Positions 3,767-10,707 of a stretch of DNA of 52,670 nt are shown here, in pieces; within the stretch, counting starts at the first letter, position 1, and every line of letters begins with the position of its first letter. Under the pieces are notes generated by a model, which was not told the origin of the DNA, ran no database searches, and worked only from the letters and a program-made list of their open reading frames with translations. The stretch is from an uncultured Reyranella sp. (GTDB taxonomy: Bacteria; Pseudomonadota; Alphaproteobacteria; Reyranellales; Reyranellaceae). The stretch spans positions 1-52,670 of the forward strand of contig CALFRN010000496.1 of NCBI GenBank assembly GCA_937919085.1, in the 5' to 3' direction. The position numbers and the translations under genes are program-made.

Positions 3767-3816
3767 CGTTGCAATCAACATTGGAGACTGCCCGGGAGCA
3801 AGCTAGAAAGCGCCTC

Positions 3817-4860
3817 ATGCCCATGCCGAAATCGATCACCATCCGCCGTCCCGACGACTGGCACGTCCATCTGCGCGACGGTGCGATGCTGGCCGCCTGT
3901 GCCGTCCACACCGCCCGCCAGTTCGCCCGCGCCATCATCATGCCGAACCTGGTCCCGCCGGTGACCAAGGTGGCCGAGGCGGTGGCGTACCGCGACCGGA
4001 TCCGCGCCGCGGTCCCGGCGGATCTCAGGTTCGAGCCGCTGATGACCTGCTATCTGACCGACGGCGCCGACCCCGCCGAGCTGTTGCGCGGCAAGCAAGA
4101 GGGCGTGTGGGTCGCCGCCAAGCTCTATCCGGCGCATGCCACCACCAATTCGGCGCATGGCGTGACATCGATGGATCGCGTCGCGAAAGGTCTCGAGGCG
4201 ATGGAAAAGGCCGGCATGCCGTTGCTGGTCCACGGCGAGGTGACCGATCCCGAGGTCGACATCTTCGACCGCGAGGCGGTCTTCCTGGACAAGATACTGG
4301 CGCCGCTCCTGAAGCGGCATCAGGGTCTGAAGGTCGTGCTGGAGCACATCACGACCGCGGAGGGCGTGGCCTTCGTCGAGGCGAATCCCGGCCGCATGGG
4401 CGGCACGATCACGCCGCATCATTTGAGCTACAACCGCAATGCGATCTTCAAGGGCGGTATCCGTCCGCACTTCTATTGCCTGCCGATCGCCAAGCGGGAG
4501 GAGCACCGTCTCGCTCTGCGGCGCGCCGCGACTTCCGGCGACCCGGCTTTCTTCCTCGGCACCGACACAGCGCCGCACACCGCCGACACCAAGGAATGCG
4601 CCTGTGGCTGCGCCGGCATTTTCAACGCCCCGGTGGCGATGCAGGTCTATGCCCAGGTCTTTGCCGAGGAAGGCGCGCTTGGGAAACTCGAAGCCTTCGC
4701 GTCGCTGAACGGGCCGCGCTTCTATGGCCTGCCTGTCAATGAGGAACGCGTCACCCTGCGGGCCCAGACCCTCGACGCGCCGGAGAGCGTCGACGTGCCG
4801 GGCATGGAAAAGACCATCGTCGTATTTCGCCCCGATACGCCGGTCGGCTGGTCGTTCTAG
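3817..4860 (+). CDS. pyrC: Dihydroorotase
   Basis: A 347-residue class II dihydroorotase, matching the E. coli PyrC length closely. It interconverts N-carbamoyl-L-aspartate and dihydroorotate in de novo pyrimidine synthesis. Zinc-site residues are in place: the H-V-H pair at residues 16-18 after RRPDDW, the carboxylated lysine K102 in AAKLYPA, histidines in LLVHGEV and LEHITT, and the aspartate in GTDTAPH. The ATG at 3817 is chosen because the family begins close to the RRPDDWH motif; an upstream in-frame extension to 3769 is not conserved. The next gene, a NUDIX hydrolase, begins 23 nt downstream on the same strand. Confidence 0.97.
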
Positions 4861-4883
4861 CGCCGCTGGTCTATCGTGGCGGC

Positions 4884-5672
4884 ATGAACAAAAAAGGCAT
4901 ACCCGCCGGCGCCGTCGTGCGCGGCACCGACAAAGGCTACGTCCATGGCGATCTGAAACCCGGCGGCGAACGGCCGGTGGAGCAGATCGAGAAGACCTAC
5001 CCCTACATGCGGCCGCGCGATGCCGCGACGCTGATCCTGGTGCGCATGAAGGGCAAGACGCCCGAGGTCCTGATGGGCTGTCGTGCCGCCGCGCACGCCT
5101 TCATGCCCAACCGCTACGTGTTCCCTGGCGGCCGCGTCGATCGCGCCGATGCCCATGTCCCGATCGCCACGCCGCTCGATCGCTACGTGAACGCCCGCCT
5201 GCAGAAGGCCGCGACCGCGCTGCGTGCCCGAGCGCTGGCCGTCGCCGCGGTGCGTGAGACCTTCGAGGAAAGCGGCCTGATGCTGGCCAAGCCCCTCAAG
5301 GGCGGTGCTCCTGACAGGGACTTTGGCGAGCACTGGAAAGGTTTTCTCGACACGGGCATGGCCCCCGCGCTCGACTGCCTCGACCTGATCGCCCGCGCGG
5401 TGACACCGCCCGGCCGGCCGCGCCGTTTCAATGCGCGCTTCTTCATGGCACGGGCCGAGGACGCGACGGGCGAGATCCGGCATTCGAGCGAGATGGGTGA
5501 TATCCGCTGGGTCCGCCTCGACGAGGCGCGCGAGCTGCCGCTGCCGACCATCACCGGTTTGATCCTGGGCGAGATTGGCCGCCTCGTGAAGGAGCCGCCC
5601 GATCGCAAGAAGCAGCGCAGGATCCCGCTGTTCACCACGATCCACCGCAAGCACCTGATGATCGAGGAGTGA
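4884..5672 (+). CDS. NUDIX hydrolase (NUDT19-like, split Nudix box)
   Basis: A 262-residue NUDIX-fold protein. The catalytic helix reads RETFEESG, matching the R-E-x-x-E-E-x-G core of the Nudix box. The glycine that normally begins the box lies in FPGGRVD and is separated from it by an insertion of about 45 residues. This split arrangement is seen in NUDT7/NUDT19-type acyl-CoA or nucleotide-diphosphate hydrolases, so a CoA-ester or nucleotide-diphosphate substrate is plausible but unproven. The gene lies between pyrC and regB, 4 nt before the regB start, and its 3' end supplies the GAGGAG ribosome site for regB, so co-transcription with the regulator is likely. Confidence 0.85.
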   Translation: MNKKGIPAGAVVRGTDKGYVHGDLKPGGERPVEQIEKTYPYMRPRDAATLILVRMKGKTPEVLMGCRAAAHAFMPNRYVFPGGRVDRADAHVPIATPLDRYVNARLQKAATALRARALAVAAVRETFEESGLMLAKPLKGGAPDRDFGEHWKGFLDTGMAPALDCLDLIARAVTPPGRPRRFNARFFMARAEDATGEIRHSSEMGDIRWVRLDEARELPLPTITGLILGEIGRLVKEPPDRKKQRRIPLFTTIHRKHLMIEE

Positions 5673-5676
5673 CCGG

Positions 5677-7032
5677 ATGACGGTGCGCGCCGAGATCGCC
5701 TCGTCGCCTGCCGCTCCGGGGTCTTCCAAACCCGCGGCCAAATCCGGATTGCCGTCGCGAGGCACCGTTCGCCTGCGGGCGCTGGTGCTCATCCGCTGGG
5801 CCGCCGTCGCCGGACAATTCCTCACCGCCGCAATCGTCCACTGGGGCTTGGGATTTGACCTGCCGGTGCTGGCGGTGGGCGGGACGATCGCGCTTTCAGC
5901 GCTGCTCAATCTTACGGTCAGTCTCGGCCGACCGGCCTCTGCGCGCATCGACGATCGCGAGGCCGCGATCTTTCTCGCGTTCGACATCCTTCAACTGGCC
6001 GTGCTGCTCTACCTCACCGGCGGCCTGATCAATCCGTTTTCGCTGCTGCTGCTGGCGCCCGTGGTCATCGGTGCCACCATCCTGTCGCTGGCGAGCAACA
6101 TCGCCTTGTCGCTGCTGACGATCCTCAGCATCGCGATACTCGGGCTCTTCCGCCAGCCATTGCCCTGGCAGGGTCCGCCGCCTGAACTGCCGGAGATCTA
6201 CCAGACCGGCATCTGGGCAGGCCTCACGCTCACGACCCTGTTGATCACGCTTTACGGTTGGCGGCTGGCCGAGGAGGCGCGGCAGATGGCGGCAGCTCTT
6301 GCGGCGGCGCAGGAGGCTCTGGCGCGCGAGCAGCGCATGTCGGCACTCGGTGCCCTGGCCGCGGCTGCGGCGCACGAGCTCGGCTCTCCGCTTTCGACCA
6401 TTGCCGTCATTGCCAAGGAAATGCTGCGCGAGATCGAGCCCGACGATCCCCTACGCGAAGATGTCGAACTGTTGTGCGCCGAATCGGATCGTTGCCGCTC
6501 GATACTCGCGCGTCTGTCGGTCGATCCGACGGGTGACGTGTCCGATGCATACGTCCTGGTTCCGCTGCCGGCCCTGATCGAGGCGGCGGCGCAGCACAAC
6601 CATCGCGGCAACATCGCCATAACCTACGAGTCGGGTCCGGCTGGCGCCGATGTTCCGGCCGTGGCACCAATCCAGATCCGCAGCCCGGAGATCATGCAAG
6701 GTATCGGCAACATCGTGCAGAACGCCGTTTCCTTTGCGCGGCATGAAGTCCGTATCGTGACGCGGTGGACGACCGAGTGGTCCGAGGTCGAGGTGACTGA
6801 CGATGGGCCTGGCTTTTCCGACGCGCTGCTTGACGAGCTCGGCACGCCCTTCATTTCGACCCGGCAGGGCGAGGAAGGTCACATGGGTTTGGGCGTATTC
6901 ATCGCCAAGACACTTCTCGAGCGCACCGGGGCCACCGTCATCTTCGGGAATCGGGCTGCCGTCGGAGCAGTTTCAGGCGGCGGTGCCGCGGTCTCGGTGC
7001 GCTGGCCAAACCCCGTCTTCAAGGCTACATAG
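5677..7032 (+). CDS. regB: Redox-sensing membrane histidine kinase RegB/PrrB/ActS
   Basis: A 451-residue sensor kinase. Six hydrophobic segments span roughly residues 30-195. The second periplasmic region carries GGLINPF at about 115-121, which matches the conserved ubiquinone-sensing G-G-x-x-N-P-F motif of RegB. The phosphoacceptor is H233 in AAHELGSPL. C273 in the DRCRSIL segment sits where the redox-active cysteine of Rhodobacter RegB lies, with a further C267 nearby. N, G1 and G2 ATPase boxes follow (GIGNIVQNA, DDGPGFS, MGLGVFIAKT). In relatives, oxidised quinone and cysteine oxidation inhibit the kinase, linking respiration to gene expression. It is immediately followed by regA. Confidence 0.96.
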   Translation: MTVRAEIASSPAAPGSSKPAAKSGLPSRGTVRLRALVLIRWAAVAGQFLTAAIVHWGLGFDLPVLAVGGTIALSALLNLTVSLGRPASARIDDREAAIFLAFDILQLAVLLYLTGGLINPFSLLLLAPVVIGATILSLASNIALSLLTILSIAILGLFRQPLPWQGPPPELPEIYQTGIWAGLTLTTLLITLYGWRLAEEARQMAAALAAAQEALAREQRMSALGALAAAAAHELGSPLSTIAVIAKEMLREIEPDDPLREDVELLCAESDRCRSILARLSVDPTGDVSDAYVLVPLPALIEAAAQHNHRGNIAITYESGPAGADVPAVAPIQIRSPEIMQGIGNIVQNAVSFARHEVRIVTRWTTEWSEVEVTDDGPGFSDALLDELGTPFISTRQGEEGHMGLGVFIAKTLLERTGATVIFGNRAAVGAVSGGGAAVSVRWPNPVFKAT

Positions 7033-7055
7033 CGGCCGATGTCGAAGGAATCACC

Positions 7056-7646
7056 ATGAGCCAGGACCCAGGTGGCGGCCACCCGGTGTCGCCCGTGATC
7101 GCCGGCGCAACGTCGAACAACGACCGAACGCTTCTGATCGCCGACGACGATGCTGCGTTCCGGAACCGCATCGCGCGGGCCCTGGAATTGCGCGGCTTCA
7201 TCGTAACGGCTGTCGGCTCGGTTGCCGAAGCGCTGACCCAGATTGCCCGGCCGCCGGCGTTCGCCGTGCTCGATTTGCGGCTGGGCGACGGCAACGGCCT
7301 CGAACTCGTGGGCCCTTTGCGTCAGGCCCGCCCCGACATCCGCATCGTGGTGTTGACCGGCTATGGCAACATCGCGACCGCCGTTGCCGCCGTGAAGGAA
7401 GGTGCGGTTGACTACCTCGCCAAGCCGGCCGACGCCGACGCCATCGAGCAGGCGTTGATCGCGCACGGCCGCAAGCTGCCGCCGCCGCCCAGCAATCCGA
7501 TGTCGGCCGATCGCGTGCGTTGGGAGCACATTCAACGCGTCTTCGAACAGTGCGATCGCAACGTTTCGGAAACGGCGCGCCGCCTCAATATGCATCGGCG
7601 TACCTTGCAGCGGATCCTGGGCAAGCACGCCCCCCGCGAACACTGA
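7056..7646 (+). CDS. regA: Response regulator RegA/PrrA/ActR
   Basis: A 196-residue partner of RegB. The receiver domain (about residues 24-140) has the acidic pocket ADDD, the phosphoacceptor D73 in VLDLRLGDG, the switch threonine in VVLTGYG and the lysine in YLAKPAD. A proline-rich linker leads to a C-terminal Fis-type helix-turn-helix whose second helix reads RRLNMHRRTLQRIL, the highly conserved RegA DNA-contacting segment. RegA homologues control photosynthesis, nitrogen or carbon fixation and respiratory genes according to redox state. An AAGGA ribosome site precedes the ATG at 7056. Its stop codon touches the beginning of the livH frame, so the transporter genes downstream are probably transcribed with it. 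Confidence 0.97.
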   Translation: MSQDPGGGHPVSPVIAGATSNNDRTLLIADDDAAFRNRIARALELRGFIVTAVGSVAEALTQIARPPAFAVLDLRLGDGNGLELVGPLRQARPDIRIVVLTGYGNIATAVAAVKEGAVDYLAKPADADAIEQALIAHGRKLPPPPSNPMSADRVRWEHIQRVFEQCDRNVSETARRLNMHRRTLQRILGKHAPREH

Positions 7647-7660
7647 TCACCCTTCAGCTC

Positions 7661-8515
7661 TTGCTCAACGCTACGGCGCTGGGCATGGCCTATGCGCTGG
7701 TGGCGCTGGGCTTCGTGTTGGCGCTCAATGCCGCTGGCGCGGTAAATTTCGCGCACGGCGACCTGGTGGTACTGGGTGGCGCCGTGGCCGTGCTCGCCGG
7801 CCAGATGACGGGACTTCCGGCACCCCTGCTGCTGCCGCTGGTTGCGTTGGTGCTTGCCGTCGCCGGGATCATTGCCGCACGGATCTCGATCCTTCCGCTC
7901 GTCTCGCGGCCACCGGAAGCGACGTTTGTTGCCACCATCGCGCTGGCCGCCATCGTCGAACAGGGTCTTACCTTCGGCCTGGGCGCCGCGCCGCGCACCG
8001 CGCCGGCCCTGGCCGGCAGCGGCTCCTTCGAGATCGCGGGCTTTGCGCTCGGCCGGCAGCCGATGGCGATCGTCGCCATCGGCGGTGTTCTCGTCGCCGC
8101 CGTCTGGTTTCTGCTCGAGCGCACCCAGACCGGGCGACGCATGCGCGCCGTGTCGGCCGACCGCTACATGGCCCGCGCCGTCGGCATTCCCGTCGGCCGC
8201 TACATCATGCTGTCTCTGGCGCTCGCCGGTGCCTTGGCAGGTATTGCCGGCCTGCTGCTGGGGCACCAGTTCCTGGTGGCGCCAACGCAGGGTGCCGGCC
8301 ACATGCTCAAGGCCTATATCGCTGTCGCGCTGGGCGGCTGGGGCAGTGTACCGGGCGCGCTCCTGGGCGCGTTGGGCATTGGCTTCTTCGAGACCTTCGG
8401 GTCGGTATGGCTGGGCGATGCCTGGGCGTCGGCGGCACTCTATGCCGGCGTTCTGGTGGTCCTGGCATTCCGGCCGCAAGGCCTGTTCGGCGAACCTGTC
8501 GGCAGGCGTGCCTGA
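7661..8515 (+). CDS. livH: Branched-chain amino acid-type ABC transporter permease LivH
   Basis: A membrane permease of about 284 residues with eight or so hydrophobic helices and the LivH signature ALNAAGAVNFAHGD near the N terminus. The conserved cytoplasmic coupling segment reads TGRRMRAVSADRYMARAVGI. In ABC importers of the hydrophobic amino acid family, LivH and LivM form the transmembrane pore for leucine/isoleucine/valine, or for amides, urea and aromatic acids in paralogues. The start is uncertain: conserved sequence begins right after the regA stop with no ATG. The TTG at 7661 is used here, a CTG at 7643 would overlap regA as CTGA, and an ATG at 7520 lies inside regA. The stop abuts the next start. 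Confidence 0.9.
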   Translation: MLNATALGMAYALVALGFVLALNAAGAVNFAHGDLVVLGGAVAVLAGQMTGLPAPLLLPLVALVLAVAGIIAARISILPLVSRPPEATFVATIALAAIVEQGLTFGLGAAPRTAPALAGSGSFEIAGFALGRQPMAIVAIGGVLVAAVWFLLERTQTGRRMRAVSADRYMARAVGIPVGRYIMLSLALAGALAGIAGLLLGHQFLVAPTQGAGHMLKAYIAVALGGWGSVPGALLGALGIGFFETFGSVWLGDAWASAALYAGVLVVLAFRPQGLFGEPVGRRA

Positions 8516-10048
8516 ATGCGCGCGCTTGGCCCCTTCTGGATTGCCATCCTCCTGCTGCCACCGGTTCTGGCACTGACCGTCCTTCCGCCATTCGGGCAAC
8601 GCATGGTCGTGCTTGTCGGCATCTATGCACTGATGGGGCTGGGCTATCAGCTGGTCTTTGGCCAGCTTGGCGCGCTGAACCTGGCACAGGGCGCGTTGTT
8701 CGGCGTCGGGGCCTACGCCGCCGCGCTCGCCGCACCGGCGCTCGGCTGGCTGGCATTGTCCGTCGCGATCGTCGCCGCGGCAGTTCCAGCGGCGATCGCC
8801 GCCGGACCGATCCTGCGCCTGCAATCGCATTATTTTGCGCTCGCCACGCTGGCGCTGGCGTCGATCGTCAATCTCGTTGCCATACACGCCGAGGCGGTGA
8901 CCGGCGGCGCCAACGGAGTCTCCGGGTTCGCATCCGCGCTGCCGCGCGGGTCCGTTCTGCTGGCGATCGTCTGGGCCTGCCTGGTCATGGGCGTGCTGGC
9001 CTATTCGCGGCTGTTCGGGGGTCGGCTTGGCGAAGAAGCCCGTCTGGTGCGCGAGGCACCGTTGGTCGCCGCCACGCTCGGCATCGATGGCGGCCGTTGG
9101 CGCGTCGCGGCGTTTATTGCGGGCGGGTCCCTCGCCGGGTTGTCTGGCGCGTTCGCAGCGGCCCTCAATGGTGTCGTCTCGCCTGACGTGACCGGCTTCC
9201 CGGTCATGGTGCTTTGCCTCACATCGGTGGTCGTCGGCGGATCGAGGCATCCGATGGGCGCGGTCCTGGGGGCGGTGCTGGCCGTTTGCCTGCCCGAGCT
9301 GTTGCGCGACTTCCAGGGCGCGTGGCTACTGGTGTATGCGGCGGCAACGCTTGCCGTCGTGCTGTGGGCCCCAGGCGGCCTCGCCGAAGGGATCGATCGT
9401 CTGCGCGGTGCACCGCTGCCAGTACGGCCCGAGCCCGCCGTGCCGGAACGGCTGTTGCCCGCAGCCGGTCCGCAGCGGTTGGTGCTCGCAGATGTTGCCA
9501 AGCGCTTTGGTGGCGTCGAGGCTCTGAGCGACGTGTCGCTCGCGATCGAACGCGGCGAAATCGTCGGCCTGATCGGCCCCAACGGCTCGGGCAAGACGAC
9601 GCTGCTCAACGTGATCTGCGGCCTTGACCGCGCCGACAGCGGAACGATCAAGCTGGACACCGCGCATCTCGAGCGCCTGCCACCGCATGCGATTGCGCGC
9701 CACGGCCTTGGTCGCTCGTTCCAATCGAACATGCTGCCGGGAGACACGCGCTCGGCTGGCCTGGCGCGCGCGATCTCGACGCATGCGGCCTTTCTGCTGC
9801 TCGACGAACCAGCAGCGGGTGCCACCGATCGCGAACGCGAGCAGCTCGCTTCATTGCTGCGCCGTCTGCGCGACGCCGGCAGGGGCGTGGTGATTGTCGA
9901 TCACGACATCGACCTTCTGGCGCGGGTCTGCGACCGGCTGATCTGCCTCGACCGTGGCAAGGTGATCGCCGTCGGCCGACCGGCCGACGTGCGCGCCAAC
10001 CCCGATGTGCGGGCGAGCTTCCTCGGGCTGGAGGAGGCGGTGGCGTGA
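8516..10048 (+). CDS. LivM-LivG fusion: ABC permease fused to an ATPase lacking its helical subdomain
   Basis: A 510-residue fusion. Residues 1 to about 300 are a LivM permease with multiple membrane helices and the family segment GQLGALNLAQGA. Residues from about 320 are a LivG-type ATPase. The ATPase has an A-loop (RFGGVEAL), Walker A GPNGSGKTT at 354-362, Q-loop Q403, Walker B LLLDEP with D430, and the H-loop in VDHDIDLL. Between Q403 and D430 there are only 27 residues, where the family has roughly 80-100. The helical subdomain and a recognisable LSGGQ or YGQQR signature are therefore missing, leaving a GDTRSAGLARAIS remnant. The reading frame is intact. LivM-LivG fusions are known in this family; the internal loss is unusual. 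Confidence 0.9.
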   Translation: MRALGPFWIAILLLPPVLALTVLPPFGQRMVVLVGIYALMGLGYQLVFGQLGALNLAQGALFGVGAYAAALAAPALGWLALSVAIVAAAVPAAIAAGPILRLQSHYFALATLALASIVNLVAIHAEAVTGGANGVSGFASALPRGSVLLAIVWACLVMGVLAYSRLFGGRLGEEARLVREAPLVAATLGIDGGRWRVAAFIAGGSLAGLSGAFAAALNGVVSPDVTGFPVMVLCLTSVVVGGSRHPMGAVLGAVLAVCLPELLRDFQGAWLLVYAAATLAVVLWAPGGLAEGIDRLRGAPLPVRPEPAVPERLLPAAGPQRLVLADVAKRFGGVEALSDVSLAIERGEIVGLIGPNGSGKTTLLNVICGLDRADSGTIKLDTAHLERLPPHAIARHGLGRSFQSNMLPGDTRSAGLARAISTHAAFLLLDEPAAGATDREREQLASLLRRLRDAGRGVVIVDHDIDLLARVCDRLICLDRGKVIAVGRPADVRANPDVRASFLGLEEAVA

Positions 10049-10707
10049 GCATGCCCGTGCTGGAGGTCGGAAATTTGACCGTCGATGCCGGCGAGATCGT
10101 GGCGCTGCTCGGCGGCAACGGCGCCGGCAAGACTGCCTTGCTCGAGGCTGTCCTTGGCATCCGGCCAGCGTCCGGTCCGGTGGTGCTGTTCGGCCGCGAT
10201 GTATCGGCAATGACGGTCGAGCAGCGCGTGTCGCTCGGTGTCGGATACGTGCCTGAAGGCCGGAGGGTATTTGCCGGTCTCACCGTGCGCGAGAATCTCG
10301 AGGTGGCTTCGCTCCTGCCTGCCGTCGGACGTGACAGGCGGATAGAGGAAATGCTGGCCCTGTTTCCGATGTTGGGCGAACGGCCGGAGGCGCGGGCCTG
10401 GCTGCTGTCCGGCGGCCAGCAGCAGATGCTCGCCCTGGCGCGAGCGCTCATGAACAGGCCGCGTCTGCTGCTGATGGACGAGCCGACCTTGGGTCTTGCA
10501 CCGCTTGTGGTCGCCGATCTCCTGCGTCGGCTGCCGCGGATGGCGGTCGACGGGACGGCGATCGTGCTGGCCGAACAGCGTGCCGGGCTGGCGTTGACGG
10601 TTGCAGGCCGGGGCTTGGTCCTGAGACGCGGACAGATCATCCGCACGGGGTCGGCGGCGGAGCTTGCAGCCGACCCAGGGTTGGCCGATCTGATGGCGGG
10701 GGGCTGA
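10045..10707 (+). CDS. livF: ABC transporter ATPase LivF, shortened N terminus
   Basis: A 220-residue LivF-type ATPase. Walker A is GGNGAGKT with K29, the signature is an intact LSGGQ at about 121-125, and Walker B is LLLMDEP with D145. The Q-loop segment reads YVPEGRRVFAGLTVREN, typical of LivF. The N terminus jumps from LEVGNLTV straight to DAGEIVALLG. The usual strand with the A-loop aromatic residue (a YG-x-x-x-AL segment of about 17 residues) is absent, so adenine stacking should be weakened. The start is a GTG at 10045 sharing GTGA with the upstream stop; an ATG at 10051 is also possible. No gene for a periplasmic binding protein lies in the window. Confidence 0.92.
   Translation: MSMPVLEVGNLTVDAGEIVALLGGNGAGKTALLEAVLGIRPASGPVVLFGRDVSAMTVEQRVSLGVGYVPEGRRVFAGLTVRENLEVASLLPAVGRDRRIEEMLALFPMLGERPEARAWLLSGGQQQMLALARALMNRPRLLLMDEPTLGLAPLVVADLLRRLPRMAVDGTAIVLAEQRAGLALTVAGRGLVLRRGQIIRTGSAAELAADPGLADLMAGG

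Follow-up and report, generated by a model that had tools for sequence, protein, structure and literature searches.

The window analysed in this work is a stretch of 52,670 nucleotides from an uncultured Reyranella sp., and the livH, livMG and livF features described below lie on its forward strand. Within it, Pfam recognises a locus comprising two permeases of the BPD_transp_2 family and two ATPases of the ABC_tran family, and this combination of two such permeases with LivG/LivF-like ATPases is the gene content of a Liv/HAAT importer. The first gene, livH (7640-8515, start uncertain), encodes a LivH-type permease, which matches PF02653 with an E-value of 6.9e-36 on the open reading frame 7520-8515 and whose synteny is conserved. 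It is followed by a LivM-LivG fusion of 510 amino acids (8516-10048), which comprises a LivM permease part (8516-9475, PF02653 at residues 30-277) and a LivG ATPase part (9476-10048), the latter matching only positions 1-68 of the 137 positions of the ABC_tran profile. The last gene, livF (10045-10707), encodes an ATPase of 220 amino acids, which matches the same profile over positions 5-136 of 137. In NCBIfam, the fusion is matched best by LivG/UrtD and LivF by UrtE/LivF, with scores far under the cut-offs; the equivalog cut-offs are missed by LivG (PRK11300, 142.3 versus 362 bits) as well as by LivF (PRK11614, 164.7 versus 441 bits). A Pfam match to BCA_ABC_TP_C, at 28.2 bits, lies above its cut-off of 25.5. 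Positions 3769-7646 hold pyrC, a nudix gene, a histidine kinase gene and the gene of a Fis-type response regulator, a block that is kept upstream of livH throughout the genus. To the extent of their flanks, the loci of the genus have the same order, pyrC-nudix-histidine kinase-response regulator-livH-livMG-livF, and so does the more distant relative L097. An ECH-family gene is found 3' of the locus in most genus loci, at a variable distance, with none within 10 kb in L076.

With regard to the LivG half, the core motifs of an ABC nucleotide-binding domain (NBD) are all present: the A-loop residue F331 (9506-9508), the Walker A motif GPNGSGKTT at residues 354-362 (9575-9601), which belongs to the active site, Q403, the Walker B residues D430-E431 (9803-9808) and the H-loop residue H463 (9902-9904). 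The helical subdomain and the LSGGQ-type signature are missing, so that the half is not a complete NBD. The spacing between Q403 and D430 (9722-9805) is 27 residues, versus 74-94 in full-length LivG, and as this gap is only 81 nt (9722-9803), no helical subdomain can be hidden in another frame. The sequence LPGDT in the junction was considered as a remnant of the signature and rejected; residues 404-416 are only 42% identical among 34 of the short sequences described below.

LivF exhibits the helical subdomain, the LSGGQ signature (residues 121-125, 10405-10419), the Walker A motif GGNGAGKT (residues 23-30, 10111-10134) and the Walker B residues D145-E146. It lacks the aromatic A-loop residue, because the strand that carries it is missing in the alignment with full-length LivF: VLEVGNLTV runs directly into AGEIVALLG, and the A-loop strand is skipped at the junction LEVGNLTVDAG (10060-10092). 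An upstream start that would restore the strand was rejected, as the in-frame extension overlaps livG and, by eye, is unlike the missing strand. Re-reading the window thus bears out the sequence-only reading, which had described a LivG half with all motifs except helical subdomain and signature, a spacing of 27 residues, and a LivF with perfect LSGGQ and Walker motifs but no A-loop strand. That reading had not mentioned a further feature of LivF, the glutamine of E177-Q178 (10573-10578), which stands in place of the H-loop histidine.

Both losses fall in one composite ATP site, that of the LivF Walker A opposite the LivG signature, as had been proposed from the window. The other site, in which the LivF LSGGQ would serve the LivG Walker motifs, keeps its elements. 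Structural models are consistent with a shortened but folded LivG. The AlphaFold2 single-chain model of the fusion has a pLDDT of 85.8, with about 90 in the LivG part and 64 at junction residues 401-410, and its residues 320-504 superpose on LptB (4p33_A) over 185 residues with an rmsd of 1.3 A and a Z score of 26.2. The single-chain model of LivF (pLDDT 93.2) matches Thermotoga LivF (1ji0) with a Z score of 28.3. The prediction for the shortened LivG is therefore an intact folded core. The RecA-like core of the Reyranella short LivG and LivF is shared with LptB, MJ1267 (LivG) and TM1139 (LivF), whose NBD structures possess a helical subdomain; the chains of these three proteins are 235-254 residues long, whereas the short LivG aligns over 185-190.

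Orthologues of the fusion were collected from 76 genomes of the order at a threshold of E <= 1e-70, which is separated by a clear gap from the next matches at about 1e-53. They are found in 43 of the 76 genomes, 34 within the genus of the window and nine outside it; the remaining genomes of the genus in this set showed no fusion orthologue at this threshold. After removal of duplicates, 35 distinct short sequences were obtained; 34 come from the genus, one per genome, and the last is from L051, a record labelled Chloroflexi that the LivM tree groups inside the Reyranella clade. L051, L057, L061, L063, L065 and L066 are labelled Chloroflexi, Asaia or Enhydrobacter and nevertheless bear the Reyranella locus; these records are probably misnamed metagenome bins. 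The Q-to-D spacing is 21-27 residues in all 35 sequences and the LivF A-loop strand is absent from all 35 (alignment judged by eye), including the records of R. massiliensis 521 and R. soli; L022 is a fusion fragment at a contig edge in which the ATPase part is still covered. The helical subdomain is kept in the relatives from other genera and from another family wherever the contig covers it, with spacings of 74-78 in L099-L103, 66 in L097 and 75 in L023. L098 and L105, which run off their contigs, were left unjudged. We also searched the LivG half in 385 genomes of the class, with few candidates per genome, and several of the matches listed looked contiguous across the junction. Five of the six such candidates retrieved are full-length LivG with at least 75 residues between Q-loop and Walker B, so the match was a chance extension; in the sixth, L204, whose match begins 93 residues past Walker A, the motif pattern detected no Walker B.

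The relatives outside the genus suggest an order of events. L099-L102 retain the LivF A-loop tyrosine and have LivG signatures of the LPAG type, while L103 exhibits a histidine at the A-loop position. An arginine is found there in L097, together with its shortened helical subdomain, and in L023, whose LivG signature is without the usual glycine. Taken by sequence, a stepwise dismantling appears to be visible in living relatives, from the full domain in L099-L103 through the shortened one in L097 and the deletion in Reyranella to the further reduced L021, L061 and L063, in which LivF is only about 175 residues long and the LivG C-terminus of the fusion is shortened by a stop. Since L099-L103, L097, L023 and L068 are LivM-LivG fusions too, the fusion is probably older than the loss of the subdomain. 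L068 (9926-12249 of that locus) carries a fusion about 41% identical to that of the window, an unrecognisable LivG signature and a LivF with a shortened N-terminus and no tyrosine. The LivM tree, whose long branches make its exact placement unsure, puts it outside the Reyranella clade, and it may be an independent joint loss. Mapped on the same tree, the short LivG requires two changes, as the branch of L097 is long and unresolved and lies either next to the group or within it; a single change suffices in 22% of the bootstrap trees, with which a single origin of the short LivG would be compatible.

We then compared the locus with ordinary LivG/LivF pairs. Starting from 53 loci with LivF- or ATPase-like matches, ten were dropped as they held no adjacent pair (L038, L129 and L001-L008), which left 43 adjacent LivG-LivF pairs, a non-random sample made up of the relatives in hand and the best matches to one LivF, near-copies included. 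In these pairs, LivG has a Q-to-D spacing of 75-94 residues and always exhibits the A-loop phenylalanine, the Q-loop glutamine, the catalytic glutamate and the H-loop histidine (43/43 each), and its signature never contains SGG (0/43). LivF exhibits xSGGx and an H-loop glutamine in all 43 and a Q-loop glutamate in 42, and it keeps the Walker B glutamate and an aromatic A-loop residue (tyrosine in 42, phenylalanine in one). The ordinary pairs thus combine a consensus composite site with an off-consensus one, as degenerate-site ABC transporters do. Judged by these motifs, the dismantling in Reyranella struck the site that already departs from the consensus in ordinary members, so that the Reyranella deletions would complete an existing trend. 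The ordinary members nevertheless look able to bind ATP at this site, and as the degenerate LivG signature coexists with an intact LivF A-loop in the 43 pairs, the loss of the A-loop is no simple consequence of signature degeneration. The proposal of an asymmetric transporter in which one site degenerates as a unit is supported by these observations, but the asymmetry is not unique to this operon.

The same genome encodes another ATPase of reduced form. On contig C80, behind an ordinary pair of livG and livF genes, lies the gene of a third ATPase (L162:1977-2594), which exhibits Walker A, Walker B and a histidine; about 30 residues replace its helical subdomain and it has no signature. It occurs in six of 192 genomes of the class, the other five copies being 58-70% identical, and in each of the five loci inspected its neighbour is LivF.

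LivFGHM and UrtBCDE, the known HAAT systems, resemble the Reyranella locus in their two BPD_transp_2 permeases and two ATPases, in the LSGGQ and H-loop glutamine of LivF and in the histidine of LivG. The Reyranella system differs from them in the LivG without helical subdomain and signature, in the LivF without A-loop strand and in that no binding protein is seen in the operon: none of the eight flanking window genes scanned with Pfam matched Peripla_BP_6. In L068, a Peripla_BP_6 gene lies immediately upstream of livH. Its orthologue was found in all eight genomes tested, with 52-56% identity and well above the next matches, on other contigs or distant from the transporter, and a Pfam scan of three of its loci (L158, L159 and L161) showed a gamma-glutamyltranspeptidase gene next to it in each. 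The candidate in the genome of the window is at L158:10000-11109, on contig C123. In the set of 76 genomes from the order, the transporter (or its longer orthologue) and the binding protein occur together in 43, the transporter is alone in none, the binding protein is alone in six and 27 lack both (Fisher 4e-15, a value that ignores phylogeny and may partly mirror one clade). The cognate binding protein is probably this unlinked Peripla_BP_6 protein beside the gamma-glutamyltranspeptidase gene. The R. massiliensis genome shows the gene of this protein as two matches (L157 and the neighbouring G022:C1:1394156-1395230), which may be due to a frameshift in that record.

The conservation of individual residues differs between the two ATP sites. 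In LivG, the Walker A motif, the Q-loop glutamine, the Walker B DE pair and the H-loop histidine are intact in all 35 short sequences, those of L021, L061 and L063 included, and so is the LSGGQ of LivF. The LivF Walker A fits GxxGxGK[ST] in 31 of 35 and departs from it in L021, L061, L063 and L044; the LivF Walker B glutamate is kept in 32 and is a glutamine in L021, L061 and L063, where the H-loop region is also missing. Among 34 sequences (all but L022), the mean pairwise identity is 99.6% at the LivF signature (residues 119-134) and 95% at the LivG Walker A, and it falls to 80% at the LivF Walker A (88% when L021, L061 and L063 are set aside). The Walker B stretch of LivF, at 93% identity, comes near the 95% of LivG, and the LivF Q-loop is 90% identical. 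The weaker conservation of the LivF Walker A is suggestive of the degenerate site, and it is no test of it, since the four departures may stem from two events. The LivF site had been called dead on the basis of the window. The A-loop and the opposing signature are indeed gone in all 35 sequences, but the retained Walker A and Walker B glutamate imply that the LivF site of the Reyranella transporter may still bind nucleotide.

As both missing pieces belong to the same ATP site, the pump is probably single-site, and we consider it quite likely that the locus encodes a Liv/HAAT-type importer, of the branched-chain-amino-acid family, that is powered by a single ATP site. In such a transporter, the consensus site would be formed by the A-loop, Walker A, Q-loop, Walker B and H-loop of LivG together with the LivF LSGGQ, and the off-consensus site by the LivF Walker A, Q-loop glutamate and H-loop glutamine together with a non-SGG LivG signature. 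The latter site would have been dismantled in the ancestor of the Reyranella group, with loss of the LivG helical subdomain and signature and of the LivF A-loop strand. The covalent fusion would keep LivG fixed to LivM as an ATP-binding anvil, onto which the LivF signature and helical subdomain would be drawn by ATP, and the other half of the dimer would act as a hinge rather than as a hydrolysing sandwich. Several points weigh on the single-site reading: the LivF Walker A and Walker B glutamate are kept more often than expected for a site without a role, the docking of the coupling helix of the transmembrane domain on a LivG without helical subdomain is a difficulty, the A-loop loss does not follow simply from signature degeneration, and the eight flanking genes scanned include no binding-protein gene.

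The origin of the window from a 525-contig assembly might suggest an assembly or sequencing artefact of a draft genome, but the presence of the same two losses in all 35 distinct sequences, which come from other assemblies as well, the R. massiliensis 521 and R. soli records among them, rules out sequencing error and leaves this explanation with a negligible probability. The sequence-only reading had named a decaying operon as the dull alternative. An operon on its way to pseudogenes would account for the truncated LivF and early fusion stop of L021, L061 and L063 and for an extra gap between Walker A and Q-loop in L064. It is very improbable for the locus as a whole, as the losses are shared, in-frame and old, the locus is conserved, none of the 35 sequences has full-length domains, which leaves no room for a strain-specific loss, and the NG86 dN/dS of the LivM, LivG and LivF segments is 0.055-0.321 in 54 comparisons (18 pairs, picked for low divergence, by three segments; the method ignores codon bias). 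These values are far under 1, also for the L061-L063 pair (0.055-0.203). Both losses are thus old and maintained under purifying selection, and they are not the product of strain decay.

The retained LivF motifs would be accommodated by an importer in which the LivF site holds ATP or ADP without hydrolysis, as structural glue or hinge in the manner proposed for degenerate sites of exporters, and only its catalytic use has been lost. The identity of its Q-loop and Walker B stretch points the same way, and in the excerpt of the review PMC7756269, degenerate sites of exporters are said to retain ATP over several cycles. Two contacts to ATP, the A-loop and the opposing signature, are nevertheless absent from every short sequence, and L021, L061 and L063 have also lost the Walker A glycines, the Walker B glutamate and the H-loop region; we regard this version as a serious contender that falls somewhat short of being favoured. 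The short LivG might instead be vestigial and the working ATPase a LivF homodimer, or LivF with a full-length LivG from another operon, since LivF has a full helical subdomain and LSGGQ and the genome is rich in ABC ATPases (134 PF00005 matches). This is unlikely: the invariant LivG motifs and the low dN/dS are unlike a vestige, and a LivF homodimer is not expected to hydrolyse ATP because of its H-loop glutamine and of the broken Walker A and Walker B motifs in three sequences.

Degenerate ATP sites are common among ABC exporters, and the need for the second site is a standing question. TAP, CFTR and Pdr5 likewise join a consensus composite site to an off-consensus one, and they retain two complete NBDs. 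According to the excerpt of PMC7756269, every motif of one site is altered in Pdr5, and the degenerate site of exporters is under selection and shows no further divergence, which is argued there to mean a retained function. In Reyranella, in contrast to these exporters as described in that excerpt, the site has been physically removed, and the transporter is an importer by family. Going by its motifs, the Reyranella system would function in the manner of degenerate-site ABC transporters, although the definition of a complete NBD does not cover its LivG half. Among the matches listed from open-licence PMC text, none described a LivG/LivF site asymmetry or a transporter NBD from which the helical subdomain is missing, and the excerpt of PMC6703430 names LivF/G only in a legend on the LptB C-terminus.

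A broader reading, on which we are evenly divided, is that this is a natural single-ATP-site importer in which the second site and the second helical subdomain are dispensable, coupling on the side concerned is provided by the covalent LivM-LivG fusion, and Liv-type operons have given rise at least twice to ABC ATPases that have no helical subdomain. In the Reyranella importer, nature would have dismantled the second ATP site, which bears on whether that site is needed. The stepwise relatives would provide ready-made constructs for the sufficiency of one site and one helical subdomain. For ordinary Liv systems, the asymmetry of the 43 pairs predicts that hydrolysis would take place at the LivG Walker site only.
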